A stretch of DNA of 64,000 bases. It comes from Thermoflavifilum aggregans (lineage in GTDB: Bacteria; Bacteroidota; Bacteroidia; Chitinophagales; Chitinophagaceae). The position numbers and the translations under genes are program-made. Each line of letters opens with the position of its first letter. The first letter of the stretch is position 1. Location: assembly GCF_002797735.1 (NCBI RefSeq), contig NZ_PGFG01000001.1:1860001-1924000 (forward strand), written 5' to 3'. Shown here piece after piece: positions 17,709 through 25,773 of this stretch. A model generated the notes under the pieces. It was given only the letters and a program-made list of their open reading frames with translations, had not been told where the DNA came from and did not search any database.

Positions 17709-17741
17709 CTTTCGTTGTTTTATCTGATTTGAATTTTCAAC

Positions 17742-17781
17742 ACGTCTCTTCATCAGCCAAAGATGAAGAGACGTTTTTTTT
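17742..17781 (+). terminator. Rho-independent terminator after the S9 peptidase
   Basis: Perfect 13-bp stem (ACGTCTCTTCATC, 17742-17754, with 17762-17774), 7-nt loop and a run of seven to eight T. Confidence 0.92.
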
Positions 17782-17888: not shown

Positions 17889-17946
17889 GTGATAAAAGTC
17901 ACCATCAGTTTTGATAAAAATCATCACGTGCATTGATGAATATCAT
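17889..17946 (+). promoter_or_regulatory. three phased Crp/Fnr-type boxes upstream of yceI
   Basis: GTGATAAAAGTCAC (17889-17902), TTGATAAAAATCAT (17911-17924) and TTGATGAATATCAT (17933-17946). The last two match the FNR consensus TTGAT-N4-ATCAA in 9 of 10 positions, the first in 7 of 10. Centres are exactly 22 bp apart. The promoter-proximal box is centred 36.5 bp before the end of the -7 element, about -41 from the expected start, which is the class II activator position. The assignment to a Crp/Fnr-family regulator is inference from sequence. Confidence 0.65.
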
Positions 17947-17968
17947 CGTACAGGGTAAAAACTCTGAG

Positions 17969-17976
17969 GATTTTTG
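17969..17976 (+). promoter_or_regulatory. -7 box of the yceI operon (GATTTTTG)
   Basis: One mismatch to TAnnTTTG and no clear -33 TTTG, as expected for an activator-dependent promoter. Predicted start near 17981, giving a leader of about 36 nt to the ATG at 18017. Confidence 0.5.
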
Positions 17977-18016
17977 CAATGAAATGATTCATCATTCAAA
18001 TCAAAAATCAAAAGCC

Positions 18017-18652
18017 ATGAAACGGGATTATGCAAAACAAATCTTGATCGTAATATTTACGATGATTATGCTTATCGCCCTGCTGATAAGCATTTTCAGG
18101 GTAAAAGCCTCAGCCCAGAGCTTATTTAAAGCTTCACCTGAATCGTATGTGCTAATAAAAGGCACATCTACGCTACACGATTGGACCATGAAATCAAATG
18201 ATGTACAGCTTTCAGTAATCTTTACCGAAGATAATCAGCATCAGATAAACGGACTAAGTAACCTTTCTCTTGTTATTCCAGTAAACAGCCTGAAAAGCAC
18301 AGAAGGCTCCATCATGGATAGCAAGGCTTACAAAGCATTAAAAGCGGAACAATATCCGCAGATTATTTTCAAATCCACACAGGCTCAGGTAAAACAAAGC
18401 GGAAATACCTATCAGATTCTTGCAACAGGAAATCTCACCATTGCAGGTGTAACCCATACCGTATCTGTGCGGACAGTCTGTGAAATGAATGGTAACCGGA
18501 AGCTTGTCTGTACCGGAGAAAAACCCATTGACATGACAGATTACAAAGTTTCACCACCCACATTCATGGGATTGATGAAAACAGGCAAAGAAGTTACCAT
18601 TCAGTTTCGTGTGGATCTGTTTTCCAATGACGGACTTTCTTTCAATAATTAA
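18017..18652 (+). CDS. YceI-family periplasmic lipid-binding-like protein
   Basis: 211 residues. An N-terminal membrane anchor/signal (LIVIFTMIMLIALLISIF, ~10-28) is followed by a YceI lipocalin-like barrel: YVLIKGTSTLHDWTMKS, STEGSIMDSKAYKALKAE and GVTHTVSV are the conserved strands. YceI proteins bind isoprenoid lipids; a precise role is not established. I use ATG 18017 rather than an in-frame ATG at 17933, because the latter lies inside an operator box and upstream of the predicted transcript start. First gene of a set with the barrel protein (36 bp later) and the alcohol dehydrogenase (36 bp after that). Confidence 0.85.
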   Translation: MKRDYAKQILIVIFTMIMLIALLISIFRVKASAQSLFKASPESYVLIKGTSTLHDWTMKSNDVQLSVIFTEDNQHQINGLSNLSLVIPVNSLKSTEGSIMDSKAYKALKAEQYPQIIFKSTQAQVKQSGNTYQILATGNLTIAGVTHTVSVRTVCEMNGNRKLVCTGEKPIDMTDYKVSPPTFMGLMKTGKEVTIQFRVDLFSNDGLSFNN

Positions 18653-18687: not shown

Positions 18688-19980
18688 ATGAAAAAGTATT
18701 TGCTTCATTTTGCCACAACCATGATCCTGGCAGGTTCCGTTCATCTGACTTATGGACAAAAGATATTGCCCAACATGCGGCCTTATGACCAAAGAGGACT
18801 CAACATGTTTGAGCCACCCAAAAATGATACGGCCACCTTTTCAAGCATGCAGCTAAAAATCGGAGCCGGATTTACCCAGCAGTTTCAGGCTCTGCGTCAT
18901 TCCAATGAAGCCACGCCAAATATTGTAAACAGTGTGGATCAAAACAAACTCATCAACATTGGCAACGGATTCAATCTGGCTACAGCCAACCTGAATCTGG
19001 ATGCTACTTTGGCTGATGGAATTGAATTAAATGTAATTACTTATCTCTCATCCCGTCATCACAACGATACCTGGGTAAAAGGAGGTTATCTGCAAATTGA
19101 TAAACTTAGTTTCCTGCACAGTCAGGCTATTGATCATCTGATGAACTATGTGCGTTTCCGTGTAGGTGATTTTGAAATCAACTATGGTGATGCTCATTTC
19201 CGCAGAACCGACAATGGACAGGCTATTCAAAATCCGTTCGTTGGCAATTACATCATGGATGCTTTCATGACTGCTGTCAGCGGTGAAGCTTATGTGATGA
19301 ACAAAGGCTGGATTGGTATGATCGGTGTAGCCGGCAGCCAGGTGAATACCACGGTAACCAACCCCTCAGGCCGCGGACCGGCTATTTACGGAAAGCTTGG
19401 ATTTGATAAACAAATCACACCCGATTTTCGTTTCAGGTTAACCGGTTCAGTATATACCAATCGCAAATCGCCCGCTAACCAGTTGTACAATGGCGACAGA
19501 GGCGGATCGCGTTATTATCTGGTGATGGAAAATACACAAGCTACCATCTCCAACAACGCATGGTCAGGTGAATACAATCCACAATTCAGCAATCATGTGA
19601 CCAGCATCATGATTAATCCATTCATTCAATATCATGGCCTGGTGTTCTTTGGCACATATGAACATGCACAGGGAAGAACAAGTGCAGAAACATCCAACAG
19701 AAAAGCCGACCAGCTTGTGGGTGATCTGCTGTACTACTTCGGCCCAAAACAAAACATTTATATCGGTGTACGCTACGATTGGGTAAAAGGTGAATTACCG
19801 GGCATTTCTCAAGCTGTGAATATTGACCGTGTACAGGCTGCATTGGGATGGTATATTGCACCAACTGTGTTGCTGAAAGCAGAATATGTGGATCAACGCT
19901 ATCATAATTATCCAACCACCAACATCAATTATGGCGGACAGTTTCATGGATTGATGCTGGAAGGCACCGTGGGATTTTAA
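18688..19980 (+). CDS. outer-membrane beta-barrel porin-like protein
   Basis: 430 residues with a signal peptide ending in TYGQ. The rest alternates polar and hydrophobic residues in short strands separated by Gly/Asn-rich turns, and the chain ends in phenylalanine (EGTVGF), typical for an outer-membrane barrel. I do not recognise a specific substrate family. It sits between yceI and a Zn alcohol dehydrogenase in one apparent operon, so it may belong to a low-oxygen or stress response controlled by the boxes upstream of yceI. Confidence 0.75.
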   Translation: MKKYLLHFATTMILAGSVHLTYGQKILPNMRPYDQRGLNMFEPPKNDTATFSSMQLKIGAGFTQQFQALRHSNEATPNIVNSVDQNKLINIGNGFNLATANLNLDATLADGIELNVITYLSSRHHNDTWVKGGYLQIDKLSFLHSQAIDHLMNYVRFRVGDFEINYGDAHFRRTDNGQAIQNPFVGNYIMDAFMTAVSGEAYVMNKGWIGMIGVAGSQVNTTVTNPSGRGPAIYGKLGFDKQITPDFRFRLTGSVYTNRKSPANQLYNGDRGGSRYYLVMENTQATISNNAWSGEYNPQFSNHVTSIMINPFIQYHGLVFFGTYEHAQGRTSAETSNRKADQLVGDLLYYFGPKQNIYIGVRYDWVKGELPGISQAVNIDRVQAALGWYIAPTVLLKAEYVDQRYHNYPTTNINYGGQFHGLMLEGTVGF

Positions 19981-20016: not shown

Positions 20017-21054
20017 ATGAAAGCAATTGTATATCACGGGCCCGGCAAAATAGCCTGGGAAGATAAACCCAAACCCTGGCTGCAGGAAGAAACCGACGTA
20101 ATCGTTAAAATTAGCAAAACAACTATTTGCGGTACCGACCTGCATATTCTCAAGGGCGATGTACCGGAAGTAACGGATGGTAGGATACTTGGGCATGAAG
20201 GAGTAGGCATCATTGAAGAAGCCGGAAAAGCTGTACAACGGTTTAAACCCGGCGATCATGTACTGATTTCATGTATCACTTCTTGTGGAAGTTGCTCGTA
20301 TTGCAAAAAAGGAATGTATTCTCATTGTGAAAAAGGCGGCTGGATTCTGGGCCATCTCATTGATGGTACACAAGCCGAATACGTAAGAATCCCTCATGCC
20401 GATCATAGCCTGTATCCAATTCCACAGGGATTGGAAGAAGAAGCATTGGTAATGCTCAGCGATATTTTGCCTACCGGATTTGAATGCGGAGTTTTAAACG
20501 GCGAAGTAAAACCGGGCGATACGGTGGTGATTGTAGGTGTAGGTCCCGTAGGTTTAGCAGCTTTGCTTACCGCTCAGTTTTATTCGCCAGGTCTGTTGAT
20601 TGCAATAGATATGGACGAGAACAGACTGGAAATTGCCAAACAGTTTGGCGCTGATTATGGCGTACAACTTAAGGAAACCAATCCTGTGGAAGTTGTGAAA
20701 GGTCTTACACAAGGGAAAGGAGCAGATGTGGTTATTGAAGCCGTTGGTGTGCCTGAGAGTTTTGAGCTTTGCCAGTCGTTGGTTGCACCTGGCGGTATTA
20801 TTGCCAACATAGGCGTACATGGTAAACCCGTTACACTCCACATGGAAAACCTATGGGCACATAATATCAAAATTACAACCCGGCTGGTCGACACGGTTAC
20901 CATTCCTTTGCTTTTGAAAACCGTTCAATCGGGCAAACTAATGCCTCAAAAATTAATCACACATCATTTTAAACTAGATGAAGCTCTGGCTGCCTATCAG
21001 GTATTTAAACATGCAGCTGCAGAAAAGGCATTGAAAGTAATTTTATCAGCATAA
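20017..21054 (+). CDS. zinc-dependent alcohol dehydrogenase (MDR family)
   Basis: 345 residues. Catalytic zinc ligands Cys in TICGTDLH (~38) and His-Glu in LGHEGVG (~60); structural zinc cysteines in SCGSCSYCKKGMYSHC (~91-106); Rossmann glycine motif VGVGPVGLAAL (~173). It oxidises or reduces a small alcohol/aldehyde with NAD(P); the threonine-dehydrogenase/secondary-alcohol branch is the closest by eye, substrate unknown. Third gene after the Crp/Fnr-type boxes; a strong terminator follows. Fermentative disposal of reducing equivalents would fit that control, as inference. Confidence 0.9.
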   Translation: MKAIVYHGPGKIAWEDKPKPWLQEETDVIVKISKTTICGTDLHILKGDVPEVTDGRILGHEGVGIIEEAGKAVQRFKPGDHVLISCITSCGSCSYCKKGMYSHCEKGGWILGHLIDGTQAEYVRIPHADHSLYPIPQGLEEEALVMLSDILPTGFECGVLNGEVKPGDTVVIVGVGPVGLAALLTAQFYSPGLLIAIDMDENRLEIAKQFGADYGVQLKETNPVEVVKGLTQGKGADVVIEAVGVPESFELCQSLVAPGGIIANIGVHGKPVTLHMENLWAHNIKITTRLVDTVTIPLLLKTVQSGKLMPQKLITHHFKLDEALAAYQVFKHAAAEKALKVILSA

Positions 21055-21235: not shown

Positions 21236-22048
21236 ATGTTAAAGATATTATTGTATACCGACAGCATGTATTTCAAACCTGAAATACTCAACTTTCCTTC
21301 CTATCTGGCAAATCTTACCCATACCAAAATTATGGAAGTATATCTGGATGATATGCTGAACACGGCATTGTGGTATGATCAGACAACTTTTGTTACACTG
21401 CCCGGTCAGATAGCGGAAAAAGAAAGATATGAAGTGATTGAAAAAAATTTTCAGAAGCTACAAGAGGAAGCCGATAAAAAAGGTATTCTGATTAAACCTT
21501 TTGAAGATGGAACTGCTACAAAGGAATTTTTTTTCAGGCATATGAGATATTCAGATTTGCTTTTGCTCGATATTCATTCGCTTAACAATCCTTCGGAAGA
21601 TATTGTCAGATTTAAATTTTTCAGAGATATCCTGATGTATGGAGAATGCCCGGTACTGCTCTTCTCTGATAGCACACAGCGTATTGATGAAATCCTATTT
21701 GCCTATAACGGCACGCCATCTTCTGTTTTTGCAATCAAACAATTTTCCTACCTATTTCCTCAACTGATGGATAGACCTATCAGGGCAATTTATGCGAAGG
21801 AAACAGAAAAAATGCAGGACAAGAAATTATTGATTGACTGGCTGAATGCACATTATATGGAAGCTTACTATGAGGAAACTACGGAGCGGTTGCTGGATAG
21901 CTTCCTGATAAGTTATCAGCAAAACAAACAAATAATAGGTGTCATGGGATCGTTCGGAAGAAGCCTGTTATCGCAGATGCTGCATAAAAGTGAAGCCTTG
22001 CATCTGATGAAAATGCTGCCGATTCCGTTGTTTATTTCACACTGGTAA
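21236..22048 (+). CDS. universal-stress-protein-like protein
   Basis: 270 residues that read as two Usp-like halves: N-terminal MLKILLYTDSMYFKPEIL with SDLLLLDIHS near residue 110, and a second half with DEILFAYNGTPSSVFAIKQF (~160) and IIGVMGSFGRSLLSQMLH near the C-terminus. The GxxG...G(S/T) ATP-binding pattern is weak, so nucleotide binding is uncertain. It follows the alcohol dehydrogenase terminator, so it has its own promoter. Tandem Usp proteins accompany anaerobic or stress genes in many Bacteroidota, in line with the neighbours. Confidence 0.7.
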   Translation: MLKILLYTDSMYFKPEILNFPSYLANLTHTKIMEVYLDDMLNTALWYDQTTFVTLPGQIAEKERYEVIEKNFQKLQEEADKKGILIKPFEDGTATKEFFFRHMRYSDLLLLDIHSLNNPSEDIVRFKFFRDILMYGECPVLLFSDSTQRIDEILFAYNGTPSSVFAIKQFSYLFPQLMDRPIRAIYAKETEKMQDKKLLIDWLNAHYMEAYYEETTERLLDSFLISYQQNKQIIGVMGSFGRSLLSQMLHKSEALHLMKMLPIPLFISHW

Positions 22049-22055
22049 TACAAAT

Positions 22056-23840
22056 TCAAAGATGGCAGCTGGATTTGCAGTCGTGAATTTCTGACTCCAG
22101 CACACGTACAATTTCATCTTCTTTTTTCAAACCTGCATGCAGCACCTGTTCGGGCTTTGATCCGTATCGAAATATGGTGATGCCTTTGGCTCCCTGCTGC
22201 CAGGCCATCCGGTAGGCTTTTTCCACATCGGCTACAGTAGCCGAAGCCGGCATGTTGATGGTTTTGGACACAGCATTATCCGTATATCGTTGAAAACTTA
22301 CCTGATGAGCAATATGATAAGTATAGTCAATTTCCAGCGAAGTTTTCAACAGGCGTTTCACCGATTCCGGCAGTTGCCGGATGTGCTGCACGCTTCCTTT
22401 CAGGATAATTTCATCGAGCATTTGTTCACTGAAATGTTGCTGGCGGGATAAGATTTCCAATGCAGCAGGATTGATTTCAAACAGGGTTTGGTTGTTCAAT
22501 ACATGTTCGCGTTTATAGGCAATAGCAAATAAAGGTTCAATAGATGAACTGGTGCCTGCTATAAGCGAAATGGTGCCGGTAGGTGCAATACTGGTCAATG
22601 TAGCATTGCGACGTTGTTGACCGGAAAATTGGCTTTGGATAATAAAAGGAAACGAACCTCTTTGTGCAGCAAGTAATGCCGAAGCTATTTGGGCTTCATG
22701 CTGAATAAACTGCATCAACTGCGATCCGAATTGCAAGGCTTCCTGTGAATCATACGGAATACCCATGCGGATAAGCATTTCAGCCCAACCCATTACACCC
22801 AGTCCTATCTTGCGGTTTCCTGTTGCCATTCGTTTTAGTTCCGGATGCAAATAGCGATTCATTTCAATCACATTATCCAGAAAACGAACAGCCAGGTGTA
22901 CCGTCCGGCGCAGCTTTTCCCAATCCACCTGCCAATCCTGATTTCCGCTTTTTTGCAGCATCCTGCTGAGATTTATCGAGCCCAAATTGCAGGATTCGTA
23001 AGGTAATAAAGGCACTTCTCCACATGGATTGGTGGCTTCAATAGTTCCGATTCCTGGTGTGGGATTGAATTGCTGAATGGTATCCAGAAATATCAACCCA
23101 GGATCGCCTGTGGCCCAGGCTGCATGAATGAGCTTGTGCCAAAGATCGGCAGCCGGAATTTCTCGTTCGATGGTTTTTCCATGTACACTTGAAAAATGCA
23201 GGGTATAGTTTTTTCCTGTTTCCAAGGCCTTGAAAAAATCATTCCGTATACCCACAGAAATATTGAAATTATTGAGTTGGTGTGCATCACGCTTGGCATC
23301 GATAAACGTCAGGATGTCTGGATGATTGATATTGAGAATACCCATGTTGGCACCTCTTCGTTTCCCTCCTTGTTTGATACCTTCTGTAGCTGCATTGAAT
23401 ATTTTCATAAAAGCCACAGGGCCCGAAGCCGTACCACCCGTAGAAGACACATAACTGCCTTCAGGCCGGAGATGACTGAAATTAAAGCCGGTACCTCCAC
23501 CGCTCTGCTGAATCAGAGCCGCCAGTTCCAGGGTATGAAAGATGGCAGCCATATCATCCTCCACAGGCAATACAAAACATGCACTTAACTGACTTAAAGG
23601 TGTGCCTGCATTCATGAGTGTGGGTGAATTGGGCAGAAAAAGTTTTTCATTCATCAAATCAAAAAACAAAGATGCCATTTGCTGTACATCCTTTGCCTCC
23701 CCCCAATATAATTCAGCTTCGGCAGTGGCCAGAGCTACTCGCTCCAGCATTTGTTCGGGAGTTTCAATAAGCCTGCCCTGCTCATCGCGGCGCAGATAGC
23801 GCGACTCCAAAACAATACGCGCATTGGCTGTCAGTTCCAT
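22056..23840 (-). CDS. nrdJ: class II (adenosylcobalamin-dependent) ribonucleotide reductase
   Basis: 594 residues. N-terminal LPNSPTLMNAGTPLSQLSACF carries the first redox cysteine (~88); the active site is NPCGEVPLLPYESCNLGSINL (~275; catalytic Cys and Glu in NPCGE); SIAPTGTISLIAGTSSSIEP follows. The C-terminus carries a Cys pair (DCKSSCHL) for reduction by thioredoxin-like partners. No radical-generating small subunit is nearby, as expected for a B12 enzyme, which works with or without oxygen. It lies 41 bp after the PNPOx-like gene and probably shares its promoter. Confidence 0.92.
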   Translation of the reverse strand: MELTANARIVLESRYLRRDEQGRLIETPEQMLERVALATAEAELYWGEAKDVQQMASLFFDLMNEKLFLPNSPTLMNAGTPLSQLSACFVLPVEDDMAAIFHTLELAALIQQSGGGTGFNFSHLRPEGSYVSSTGGTASGPVAFMKIFNAATEGIKQGGKRRGANMGILNINHPDILTFIDAKRDAHQLNNFNISVGIRNDFFKALETGKNYTLHFSSVHGKTIEREIPAADLWHKLIHAAWATGDPGLIFLDTIQQFNPTPGIGTIEATNPCGEVPLLPYESCNLGSINLSRMLQKSGNQDWQVDWEKLRRTVHLAVRFLDNVIEMNRYLHPELKRMATGNRKIGLGVMGWAEMLIRMGIPYDSQEALQFGSQLMQFIQHEAQIASALLAAQRGSFPFIIQSQFSGQQRRNATLTSIAPTGTISLIAGTSSSIEPLFAIAYKREHVLNNQTLFEINPAALEILSRQQHFSEQMLDEIILKGSVQHIRQLPESVKRLLKTSLEIDYTYHIAHQVSFQRYTDNAVSKTINMPASATVADVEKAYRMAWQQGAKGITIFRYGSKPEQVLHAGLKKEDEIVRVLESEIHDCKSSCHL

Positions 23841-23881: not shown

Positions 23882-24352
23882 TTATGAAGGTTTCTGCTCA
23901 TATCGATGAAACCGACCGCTTTTTTCAAGCACTCTAATCCGATACACAATATTCATGGCTCCTTCTGCCAGCAGCTGATCGGGCTGCACGTCCAGTTCAA
24001 TAGGCTTTTCAGCAGCCTGATGCACATCCAGCTTGTATATTTTCCGGATCAACATGTCCAACGCATAATATCGTTGCTGCGGATCCGTAATTTCCTCATA
24101 CAAACCCCATACTAGCACACTTTGCCAGTTTCTTTGGTCTATAATTTCATCAACTTGAAAACATACTTCCTGCTGGTTTCGCAATGCCCGAATCTTTTCT
24201 CCTTCCCGTGAATGTGCAATAATACTGGTACCATCAAACAGATAGGTAACCGGAATAATGTATATTCTGCCATCAATCTGATATCCAATCCGACCAAACG
24301 AATGGCGCTGCAAAAAATCATCCATTTGTGAAACGGTAAGTGAACCCAGCAT
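23882..24352 (-). CDS. pyridoxamine-5'-phosphate-oxidase-like flavin-binding protein
   Basis: 156 residues of the PNPOx-like split barrel: FGRIGYQIDGRIYIIPVTYLFDGTSIIAHS near the N-terminus is the typical FMN-binding start, followed by QEVCFQVDEI and WQSVLVWGLYEEI. Family members include heme-degrading, flavin- and F420-binding proteins; true PdxH function is unlikely at this length. It is divergent from the CoA transferase across an operator-containing gap and upstream of nrdJ. Confidence 0.82.
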   Translation of the reverse strand: MLGSLTVSQMDDFLQRHSFGRIGYQIDGRIYIIPVTYLFDGTSIIAHSREGEKIRALRNQQEVCFQVDEIIDQRNWQSVLVWGLYEEITDPQQRYYALDMLIRKIYKLDVHQAAEKPIELDVQPDQLLAEGAMNIVYRIRVLEKSGRFHRYEQKPS

Positions 24353-24409: not shown

Positions 24410-24446
24410 ATGATAAAAATCACCCATCGATATTGATTAAACTCAT
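24410..24446 (+). promoter_or_regulatory. two Crp/Fnr-type boxes upstream of the CoA transferase
   Basis: ATGATAAAAATCAC (24410-24423) and TTGATTAAACTCAT (24433-24446), each 8 of 10 against TTGAT-N4-ATCAA, centres 23 bp apart. The promoter-proximal box is centred 36.5 bp before the end of the -7 element, the same distance as at yceI. The gap is shared with the divergent PNPOx-nrdJ pair, which may also be controlled. Confidence 0.6.
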
Positions 24447-24468
24447 CTGCATGCTATGTGTAAAACTT

Positions 24469-24476
24469 TTATTTTG
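24469..24476 (+). promoter_or_regulatory. -7 box of the CoA transferase (TTATTTTG)
   Basis: One mismatch to TAnnTTTG; predicted leader of about 21 nt to ATG 24502. Confidence 0.5.
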
Positions 24477-24501: not shown

Positions 24502-25773
24502 ATGAAATGGGTACAAGCTGCTGAAGCCGTATCGGTTGTGCAATCGGGTCATCGGGTTTTTATTCACAGTGTGGCGATGACACCGCATGTTTTAATTGAT
24601 GCATTGGTTGCCAGATCGCATGAACTGCAGAATGTAGAAATCGTGCATATTCACACGGAAGGTGATCTCCCCTATTGCAAGCCAGAGTATGCTGATGCTT
24701 TTTACCCGAATTCATTTTTTATCGGAAGCAACATGAGACAGGCGCTTGCCGAAGGAATCGGAGATTATGTGCCTGTTTTTTTAAGCGATATTTCCACATT
24801 ATTTCGCCATCGCATTTTGCCAATTGATGTGGCATTTATACAGGTCAGTCCACCCGACAAACACGGATATTGTTCACTCGGACCTTCGGTTGATGTCACG
24901 CTCAGTGCGGTAGAAACTGCCCGCTGGGTTGTAGCCCAGGTTAATCCCCGCGTACCGCGTACACACGGTGATGGCATCGTGCATGAAAAAGATATTGATT
25001 TTGCCGTATGGCATGAAGCCGACATTCATGAAGTGCAAAGTGCACCTGTAACAGCTGTTGAACAACAAATCGGTCGTCATATAGCCGCCTTGATTGAAGA
25101 CGGATCAACCCTGCAAACCGGCATTGGTGCTATTCCCAACGCTGTGCTTGAACAACTGGAACATCATCGTGATCTGGGTATTCATACCGAAATGTTTTCC
25201 GATGGATTGATACCATTGGTGGAAAAAGGAGTCATTACCGGAAGATATAAAAAGGTAATCCCCAATAAAATTGTGGCCTGTTTTGTGATGGGTTCGAAAA
25301 AAGTGTATGATTTCATTCATGATAATCCCATCCTGTCCATGAAAGAAACAGCATTTACCAACGATACGAGTATCATTCGGAAAAATCCCAAAATGGTGGC
25401 TATCAACAGCGCTATTGAAATTGATTTAACCGGACAGGTATGTGCTGATTCCATTGGTACCTATCAATATTCTGGTGTGGGTGGACAATTGGATTTTATT
25501 CGCGGTGCTGCTTTATCAGAAGGCGGCAAACCCATCATTGCCATGGCATCTGTTACCAAAAACGGTGCAAGCAAGATTGTTCCTTTTCTGAAACCGGGTG
25601 CCAGCGTAACCACTACCCGCGCGCATATACATTATGTAGTTACTGAATACGGTGTAGCGGATTTGTTTGGCAAAAACCTGCGCCAGCGGGCAAAGGCATT
25701 GATTGAGATTGCACATCCCGATCATCGGGAATGGCTGGAAAAAGCAGCTTATGAGCGATTTAAACGATGGTAA
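24502..25773 (+). CDS. acetyl-CoA hydrolase/transferase family protein
   Basis: 423 residues. Two-domain CoA-transferase of the Cat1/4-hydroxybutyrate type: KMVAINSAIEIDLTGQVCADSIG and GGQLDFIRGAALSEGGKPIIA in the C-terminal half are diagnostic, and the catalytic glutamate is expected in GIHTEMFSDG (~230). It transfers CoA between acetate and another carboxylate or hydrolyses acetyl-CoA. The Crp/Fnr-type boxes upstream suggest use during oxygen limitation, for acetate or succinate exchange; this is inference. Confidence 0.88.
   Translation: MKWVQAAEAVSVVQSGHRVFIHSVAMTPHVLIDALVARSHELQNVEIVHIHTEGDLPYCKPEYADAFYPNSFFIGSNMRQALAEGIGDYVPVFLSDISTLFRHRILPIDVAFIQVSPPDKHGYCSLGPSVDVTLSAVETARWVVAQVNPRVPRTHGDGIVHEKDIDFAVWHEADIHEVQSAPVTAVEQQIGRHIAALIEDGSTLQTGIGAIPNAVLEQLEHHRDLGIHTEMFSDGLIPLVEKGVITGRYKKVIPNKIVACFVMGSKKVYDFIHDNPILSMKETAFTNDTSIIRKNPKMVAINSAIEIDLTGQVCADSIGTYQYSGVGGQLDFIRGAALSEGGKPIIAMASVTKNGASKIVPFLKPGASVTTTRAHIHYVVTEYGVADLFGKNLRQRAKALIEIAHPDHREWLEKAAYERFKRW

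Follow-up and report, generated by a model that had tools for sequence, protein, structure and literature searches.

The window analysed here is a 64,000-nucleotide stretch of Thermoflavifilum aggregans, whose genome is a single contig of 2.84 Mb. Within it, the genes for a YceI-domain protein, a predicted outer-membrane barrel protein and a zinc-dependent dehydrogenase lie behind an array of three TGA-N6-TCA palindromes spanning positions 17889-17948, with start-to-start distances of 22 + 22 bp (Table 1). Each box has the palindromic form of a Crp/Fnr-family operator, and a predicted terminator likely separates the S9 peptidase gene from this promoter. The second array in the window (24411) faces, by its register, a CoA-transferase gene; toward the pyridoxamine-phosphate-oxidase-fold (PPOX-fold) gene on its other side there is no TTTG at +39, counted from the proximal TGA.

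Table 1. Positions of the arrays, promoter elements and neighbouring genes within the window.
Feature	Position	Strand	Basis or remark
Hairpin plus T run, likely terminating the S9 peptidase gene upstream	17739..17781	+	By inspection
Distal box 1, GTGATAAAAGTCAC, (G)TGATAAAAGTCAC(C)	17889..17904	+	Sequence inspection; kept in 4 Thermoflavifilum genomes
Middle box 2, TTGATAAAAATCAT, (T)TGATAAAAATCAT(CA)	17911..17926	+	Kept in 4 Thermoflavifilum genomes
Proximal box 3, TTGATGAATATCAT, (T)TGATGAATATCAT(CG)	17933..17948	+	Sequence inspection
-7 element GATTTTTG, TAnnTTTG type	17969..17976	+	TTTG begins exactly 39 nt after box 3 TGA
YceI-domain protein, first gene behind array	18017..18652	+	Pfam PF04264, E 5.4e-15
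Predicted outer-membrane barrel protein, second gene	18688..19980	+	No Pfam match; barrel called in the initial annotation
Zinc-dependent alcohol dehydrogenase family protein	20017..21054	+	Pfam ADH_N, ADH_zinc_N
270-aa protein after dehydrogenase gene, possibly universal-stress-like	21236..22048	+	By eye; no match in Pfam or NCBIfam
Class II (B12-dependent) ribonucleotide reductase	22056..23840	-	TIGR02504 above cut-off; downstream of PPOX-fold gene
PPOX-fold protein, divergent from second array	23882..24352	-	Pfam
Second array, TGATAAAAATCACC and TGATTAAACTCATC, 23 bp apart	24411..24447	+	
-7 element TTATTTTG	24469..24476	+	TTTG exactly 39 nt past proximal TGA
Acetyl-CoA hydrolase/transferase family protein behind second array	24502..25773	+	Pfam PF13336, PF02550

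The boxes at 17889, 17911 and 17933 are present with the 22 bp spacing claimed for them in the initial annotation. Measured against the strict FNR box TTGAT-N4-ATCAA, with its outer T and A, all three fall short (7/10, counted by eye, for box 1, and 9/10 for each of boxes 2 and 3), in agreement with the two 9/10 matches reported there. The centre of box 3, at 17939.5, lies at about -40/-41 given an inferred transcription start near 17980, in line with the proposed position of about -41. The choice of TTGAT-N4-ATCAA as the recognised box fared less well: its palindromic core is real, whereas the outer T and A are not required in the family composites described below. The Thermoflavifilum box is, by eye, closer to GRTGA-N6-TCAYC, and the box across the family reads TGAY-N4-RTCA. 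Used alone as a genome scan, TTGAT-N4-ATCAA gave 17 sites in the T. aggregans genome, and the arrays were used instead to define the motif anew; single boxes with one mismatch were too frequent to inform (85 forward and 72 reverse, control 8 and 9). The exact single-box matches at 400123 and 2431296 of this genome (G000) fall within long reading frames.

Elsewhere in the genus, YceI identity is 93% to T. thermophilum and 80% and 70% in two metagenome-assembled genomes (MAGs). T. thermophilum is similar over the whole upstream region. The flanks of the two MAGs now align poorly, yet the boxes and the -7 TTTG are retained. The spacing is kept in these close relatives, a point on which the initial annotation had made its proposal depend, with a distance from box 1 to box 3 of 44 bp in three other Thermoflavifilum genomes, among them HOG52, where the left half of the middle box is degenerate. 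In the most distant genome of the genus (L005) the first two boxes are 23 bp apart and the third, with a degenerate left half and 5/6 core bases, follows at 22 bp. Most Thermoflavifilum arrays have a spacing of 23 bp, the yceI array having 22 bp except in that most distant genome. Across five Thermoflavifilum genomes, a two-box pattern of variable distance matched many times at 22 or 23 bp, and those of these matches that were annotated lay mostly at promoters; the reversed pattern gave 2 matches. Two more exact 22-bp pairs in the T. aggregans genome (G000:C1:1537542 and 2140374) are possibly intragenic, and one or two further Thermoflavifilum genomes have similar pairs.

The array is not confined to yceI, and it reaches past the genus. 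A loose two-box pattern was run over an even draw of 195 Chitinophagaceae genomes, and among the matches listed the spacing was 22 bp at 58 of 120 distinct places, the next-best spacing in the 16-36 range accounting for 8 places among the same matches; the rule thus extends across the family, beyond close relatives. At orthologous promoters, where the initial annotation had looked for enrichment of the box, the 1500 bases upstream of 30 yceI-operon (barrel) loci, 4 of them from Thermoflavifilum, were searched for exact TGA-N6-TCA pairs. Such pairs occurred solely at 22 (20 pairs), 23 (1) and 44 bp (5), as against 0.45 pairs over spacings 14-45 in dinucleotide shuffles and 1 in downstream DNA, and enrichment was indeed found, with a 22/23-bp pair in 16/30 loci (12/26 outside the genus). 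The nosZ loci carried an exact 22/23-bp pair in 12/30 cases, with 0.6 pairs over all spacings in shuffles and one or two pairs also at 20, 21, 32 and 43 bp. The exact pair is absent at 14/30 barrel and 18/30 nosZ loci, which counts against the explanation favoured below; exact patterns overlook degenerate boxes. With one mismatch allowed, 20/30 barrel and 20/30 nosZ loci have a 22/23-bp pair and 10/30 of each still have none. Under this relaxed pattern further places score as well, and the barrel loci gave 31 pairs at 22 bp, 8 at 44 and at most 6 at any other spacing, and the nosZ loci 16 at 22, 6 at 23 and at most 5 at any other spacing. Among the matches listed, 8 places in G118:C1 and 2 in G188 are a near-identical repeated sequence with two boxes 23 bp apart, probably a repeat or mobile element mimicking or carrying the boxes.

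The arrays also keep a register to the -7 element, the Bacteroidetes -7 consensus being TAnnTTTG. Of 43 arrays whose target is known (8 from Thermoflavifilum), 20 have TTTG exactly at +39, counted from the proximal TGA, and 4 more have it at +61 (39 + 22); a further box at +22 matches 5/6 core bases in three of these four and 3/6 in the fourth. By group, the +39 TTTG was found in 10/12 nosZ arrays, 7/14 barrel arrays (plus the 4 at +61) and 3/17 arrays of the receiver-CRP regulator gene introduced below. In the stretches from five Thermoflavifilum genomes it stands on one strand in 21/24 array promoters (hand tally), the three exceptions being TAGTTTTA, TAAAATTG and the yceI promoter with a degenerate box (+61), and this one-sided register gives the promoter direction of each array. 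A fixed distance from site to core promoter, as at class II promoters, is thus present; it is weak at the receiver-CRP promoter, and the start site is inferred.

The full composite (box, 22 bp, box, 39 nt, TTTG) occurs in 126/195 Chitinophagaceae genomes and 75/101 genera, with 0 for the reversed control, a clear outcome for the scan that the initial annotation had recommended, namely for the box at a fixed distance to TAnnTTTG in its own genome and across the family. Phylum-wide it is present in 42/395 genomes, again with 0 in the reversed control; by hand count these are 2/2 for T. aggregans and its genus, 9/12 in the family, 5/5 in another family of the order, 23/79 in the rest of the class and 3/297 in other classes of the phylum. 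Evenly spaced boxes mark a widespread promoter type in Chitinophagaceae and related Bacteroidota. In 51 composites from fetched loci, the box reads TGAY-N4-RTCA, and the TA of TAnnTTTG, which was outside the search pattern, appears as well (T in 35/51, A in 45/51), as expected of a Bacteroidetes-type promoter and as seen in the window. At position -1, 33% of the distal and 41% of the proximal boxes of these composites have T, a minority, so the outer T/A of TTGAT/ATCAA is dispensable.

An artefact of chance or of AT-rich promoter composition might be suspected, given that TGA and TCA are common trinucleotides, that single-box matches are abundant and that the loose two-box pattern has reversed-control matches in some genomes (e.g., 4 and 7 in G090). 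This reading is already refuted by the sharp peaks at 22 bp and +39, composite controls of 0/195 and 0/395 and shuffles near 0, and we accord it practically no probability. A second reading holds that the proximal box alone activates, while the upstream boxes repress or tune; some tandem Fnr sites have been reported with a repressing or tuning upstream box. The proximal box alone takes the class II position, and conservation of the distal boxes is also compatible with a modulating role. A tuning arrangement would, however, be expected to vary more than a pair that is present in 75/101 sampled genera and, in the sample annotated, stands before functionally coherent genes, and we regard it as improbable.

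Several kinds of gene lie behind arrays within the genus. In addition to the yceI-barrel-dehydrogenase series and the CoA transferase, which is divergent from the PPOX-fold and class II ribonucleotide reductase genes, they comprise a cytochrome c gene plus a Sec-type (clade II) NosZ gene (TIGR04246), a copper nitrite reductase NirK gene (TIGR02376) divergent, by eye, from one for a HIT-like protein, an SQR-like flavoprotein gene (below the model cut-off) and a COX1/COX2 oxidase divergent from an operon of a kinase and the receiver-CRP regulator. A 105-aa protein is encoded behind the array in four Thermoflavifilum genomes (L028:4710-5027, L011:3868-4185, L013:3805-4122, L020:1358-1675), and in at least two genomes of the genus a zinc dehydrogenase gene comes next (by eye); the L028 copy, the one of the four that was scanned, has no Pfam match.

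Across the family and outside it, 48 distinct genes behind composites (loci L249-L297) were assigned among the matches listed, which cover 25 of 29 families. Within those matches, there were 6 P-type ATPases, 4 with a CcoI-like metal-binding domain; three each of COX1, Usp, radical SAM HemN-like and YceI (Thermoflavifilum included); two each of Rrf2, PPOX-fold, MBL and rhodanese; and one each of NosZ, cytochrome c and flavodoxin, the remaining genes belonging to other families or to none. The names CcoI, HemN and SQR are putative, drawn from domains, sequence features and neighbours. Relatives of the window's PPOX-fold protein stand behind the composite in two other genomes, relatives of its barrel protein occur in 40/195 family genomes, and a Sec-type (clade II) nosZ relative is found in 95/195. 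The low-oxygen or nitrosative response suggested in the initial annotation is well supported by this gene content, with NosZ, NirK and terminal oxidases behind the composites. Similar proteins of about 126-138 aa, with an N-terminal ...FNKLFPFLKIEF... and grouped as a family by eye, are encoded directly behind the composite at L254, L263, L266, L275 and L278; P-type ATPases apart, no Pfam family among the matches listed covers five members, and this recurrent protein is possibly a new low-oxygen protein. A large protein beginning MDKPKLHSFHIPVLGIGYSIDTPIKVA also stands behind the composite in two genomes (L260:1-1440, L262:3-1439).

Two proteins of the T. aggregans genome exceed the cNMP-binding-domain cut-off. 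One, a receiver-cNMP-HTH_Crp fusion (receiver-CRP; G000:C1:1440279-1441331, outside the window), is encoded next to a PAS histidine kinase and is the best candidate for the regulator. Arrays lie within about 3 kb on both sides of its gene, one before the SQR-like gene and one before the oxidase. Stretches of 2.7-4.8 kb upstream of the receiver-CRP gene from 40 genomes of other genera hold a 22/23-bp pair in 34/40 cases; 44/52 of their pairs are at 22 bp, 1 is at 23 and 7 are at other spacings in the range 14-45. A kinase reading frame stands beside the gene in part only of these 40 genomes. The same stretches contain CcoI-like ATPase, RIC-type repair, Rrf2, radical SAM HemN-like and PPOX-fold genes (one of each tested). 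At the regulator's own promoter, TTTG stands at +39 in 3/17 arrays and at +30 in 4/17, and by register the shared intergenic array of Thermoflavifilum faces the oxidase, not the kinase operon; for both reasons autoregulation is unproven.

The search for a Crp/Fnr gene with a matching recognition helix, also proposed in the initial annotation, yielded a further candidate in other genomes, an Fnr-like protein. The two candidates form sister clades, apart from other Crp paralogues (FastTree, midpoint-rooted), and have similar recognition helices, GTA(K/T)ES(T/L)IR and GTATE(S/T)xIR. The Fnr model is the best match of the Fnr-like protein, below its cut-off. In 23 proteins scored from 30 loci, 20/23 have C-x2-C-x7-9-C, a spacing that differs from that of the E. 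coli FNR cysteines; a 22-bp pair lies nearby at 15/23, with no other spacing from 14 to 45 there, and a CxHCGxxC reading frame is nearby at 18/23.

Scored as present at E <= 1e-60, receiver-CRP occurs in 137/195 genomes; the Fnr-like protein (best match E <= 1e-53) occurs in 51/195, including 27 of the 58 without receiver-CRP, which leaves 31 genomes with neither. The composite is found in 109/137 genomes with receiver-CRP vs 17/58 without it: 87/113 with receiver-CRP only, 22/24 with both, 13/27 with the Fnr-like protein only and 4/31 with neither, although Fisher values on these counts overstate certainty because the genomes are related and phylogeny was not corrected for. Three of the four composite genomes with neither regulator have 60-76% completeness; the fourth, G081, has a Crp gene at a contig edge that groups next to the receiver-CRP clade. 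The 28/137 receiver-CRP genomes with no exact composite count against our explanation, and presence of the Fnr-like protein taken alone is uncorrelated with the composite (35/51 vs 91/144). NosZ is encoded in 93/164 genomes with either regulator vs 2/31 with neither.

The boxes might instead be bound by a non-Crp protein or by the L002-type protein, the genome's second Crp/Fnr member and the sole other one over the cNMP-binding-domain cut-off. Four points speak against an L002-type binder: among the matches listed, no pair is closer than 25 kb to the gene; the glutamate that both candidate clades have is missing from the helix (GTDRVVVSRLL); the tree places the protein in a remote clade; and composites track the presence of receiver-CRP or the Fnr-like protein. 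We judge this reading very improbable.

The nature of the signal leaves more room for another view, in which operator and regulon are the same and a nitrogen oxide such as nitric oxide or nitrite (Dnr/NnrR-like), rather than low oxygen, serves as the cue. NosZ and NirK behind arrays would suit it, as would the RIC/ScdA-type Fe-S repair and Rrf2-family genes that neighbour those of the kinase and receiver-CRP (one of each tested) and the 2/48 Rrf2 genes behind composites, among the matches listed. The oxidase, CcoI-type, HemN-like and class II ribonucleotide reductase genes, by contrast, suit oxygen limitation, and the kinase PAS domain can be aligned with two oxygen sensors, FixL and DosP, such that the histidines coincide, and with FixL over G-x-G-R too, although its top match, 10jx, has the motif as well and many such PAS domains bind no heme. 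A nitrogen-oxide signal is possible, then, at odds clearly below even. As a separate observation, an Rrf2-family gene (L214:2082-2516) and a RIC/ScdA-type repair gene (L217:2470-3225) precede kinase and receiver-CRP genes, and Rrf2- and RIC-like N-termini that recur in other stretches hint at a nitrosative branch.

We consider it quite likely that the array is an activating operator for low-oxygen and nitrogen-oxide respiration, bound by a Crp/Fnr-family regulator that is most likely receiver-CRP. The low-oxygen/denitrification regulon is probably real, and would switch on oxygen-poor respiration and nitrous-oxide removal. With geometry, conservation, targets, gene linkage and a similar recognition helix as observed, binding, signal, phosphorylation and direction of control may be pictured as follows. 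Low oxygen (or NO) would alter the PAS domain of the histidine kinase, which would phosphorylate the receiver domain of receiver-CRP. Neighbouring dimers would then occupy boxes 22 bp apart, all on the same side of the helix. The proximal one, at about -41, would contact RNA polymerase at the TAnnTTTG promoter, and those upstream would bring cooperativity or additional polymerase contacts. In some relatives, the sister-clade Fnr-like protein, with its N-terminal cysteines, may serve the same kind of boxes. Bridging of adjacent dimers by receiver domains was considered as the cause of the 22 bp and is weakened, as the spacing is unchanged without receiver-CRP: G069, G083, G090 and G166 (barrel loci L102, L115, L105 and L108) keep it, and they contain no receiver-CRP match and no Crp-type reading frame of that length. 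The geometry is therefore probably set by the DNA-binding part or the polymerase, not by the receiver. A broader, more tentative proposal, to which we give slightly less than an even chance, is a class-wide architecture in which at least two side-by-side Crp/Fnr dimers, at 22 bp and in fixed -7 register, control low-oxygen and N2O respiration; interchangeable sensors would act through one and the same DNA-binding module and operator, a phosphorylated receiver with a FixL-like kinase in some lineages and a cysteine (Fe-S) input in others.

Chitinophagaceae are common in soils and wastewater, and clade II nosZ in this family is a natural N2O sink. The array amounts to a simple rule for predicting, from sequence, the members of the regulon in many genomes, and with two candidate regulators named, control of N2O reduction by oxygen or NO in Chitinophagaceae becomes directly testable. 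The fixed 22-bp/39-nt geometry also provides a clean system for cooperation between Crp-type dimers at the unusual Bacteroidetes promoter.

Among known systems, the DosR/DevR dormancy regulon is under two-component control and includes Usp-type, class II RNR and PPOX-fold genes, with a NarL-type output domain; the mode of control and these gene types are alike, whereas the output domain and the box differ. FNR, ANR and FnrL share with the present system the core TGAY-N4-RTCA, a proximal site near -41 and a low-oxygen gene set; here, unlike there, two or three boxes are contiguous and the outer T/A is dispensable. With Dnr, NnrR and HcpR, the nos and nir targets are held in common. The accessible text of a 2005 reconstruction has Bacteroides and Porphyromonas only under HcpR2 and hcp, with other motifs (PMC1274295). 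In Nitrosophilus labii, an organism of a different group, Crp/Fnr sites have been proposed upstream of nosZ, several at some promoters (PMC11539149); clade II nosZ and TTGA-N6-TCAA-type sites are in common, and the accessible part of that paper describes no fixed spacing or -7 register. As far as its text was accessible, the open literature that we searched, including PMC8510549, PMC11539149 and PMC1274295, describes neither a low-oxygen regulon under a receiver-CRP protein nor, for Bacteroidota, tandem boxes at 22 bp, and does not say how Chitinophagaceae switch nosZ on.

Further parallels concern FixL/FixJ-FixK (FixK2) of the rhizobia, with which a FixL-aligning PAS kinase, a receiver domain and a Crp-type output are shared, and the three are encoded together in the genome of the window. 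The target set, which here comes from gene content, is likewise shared (terminal oxidase, CcoI-type and nos genes), FixK2 being an activator of nos according to the accessible portion of PMC5582078. In FixLJ-FixK, FixJ (a receiver with a LuxR-type HTH) and FixK are separate, whereas here a single receiver-cNMP-HTH_Crp protein is encoded, such that FixL, FixJ and FixK would in effect be collapsed into two proteins in Thermoflavifilum. Also unlike FixLJ-FixK, the present system combines tandem 22-bp boxes with a Bacteroidetes -7 promoter.
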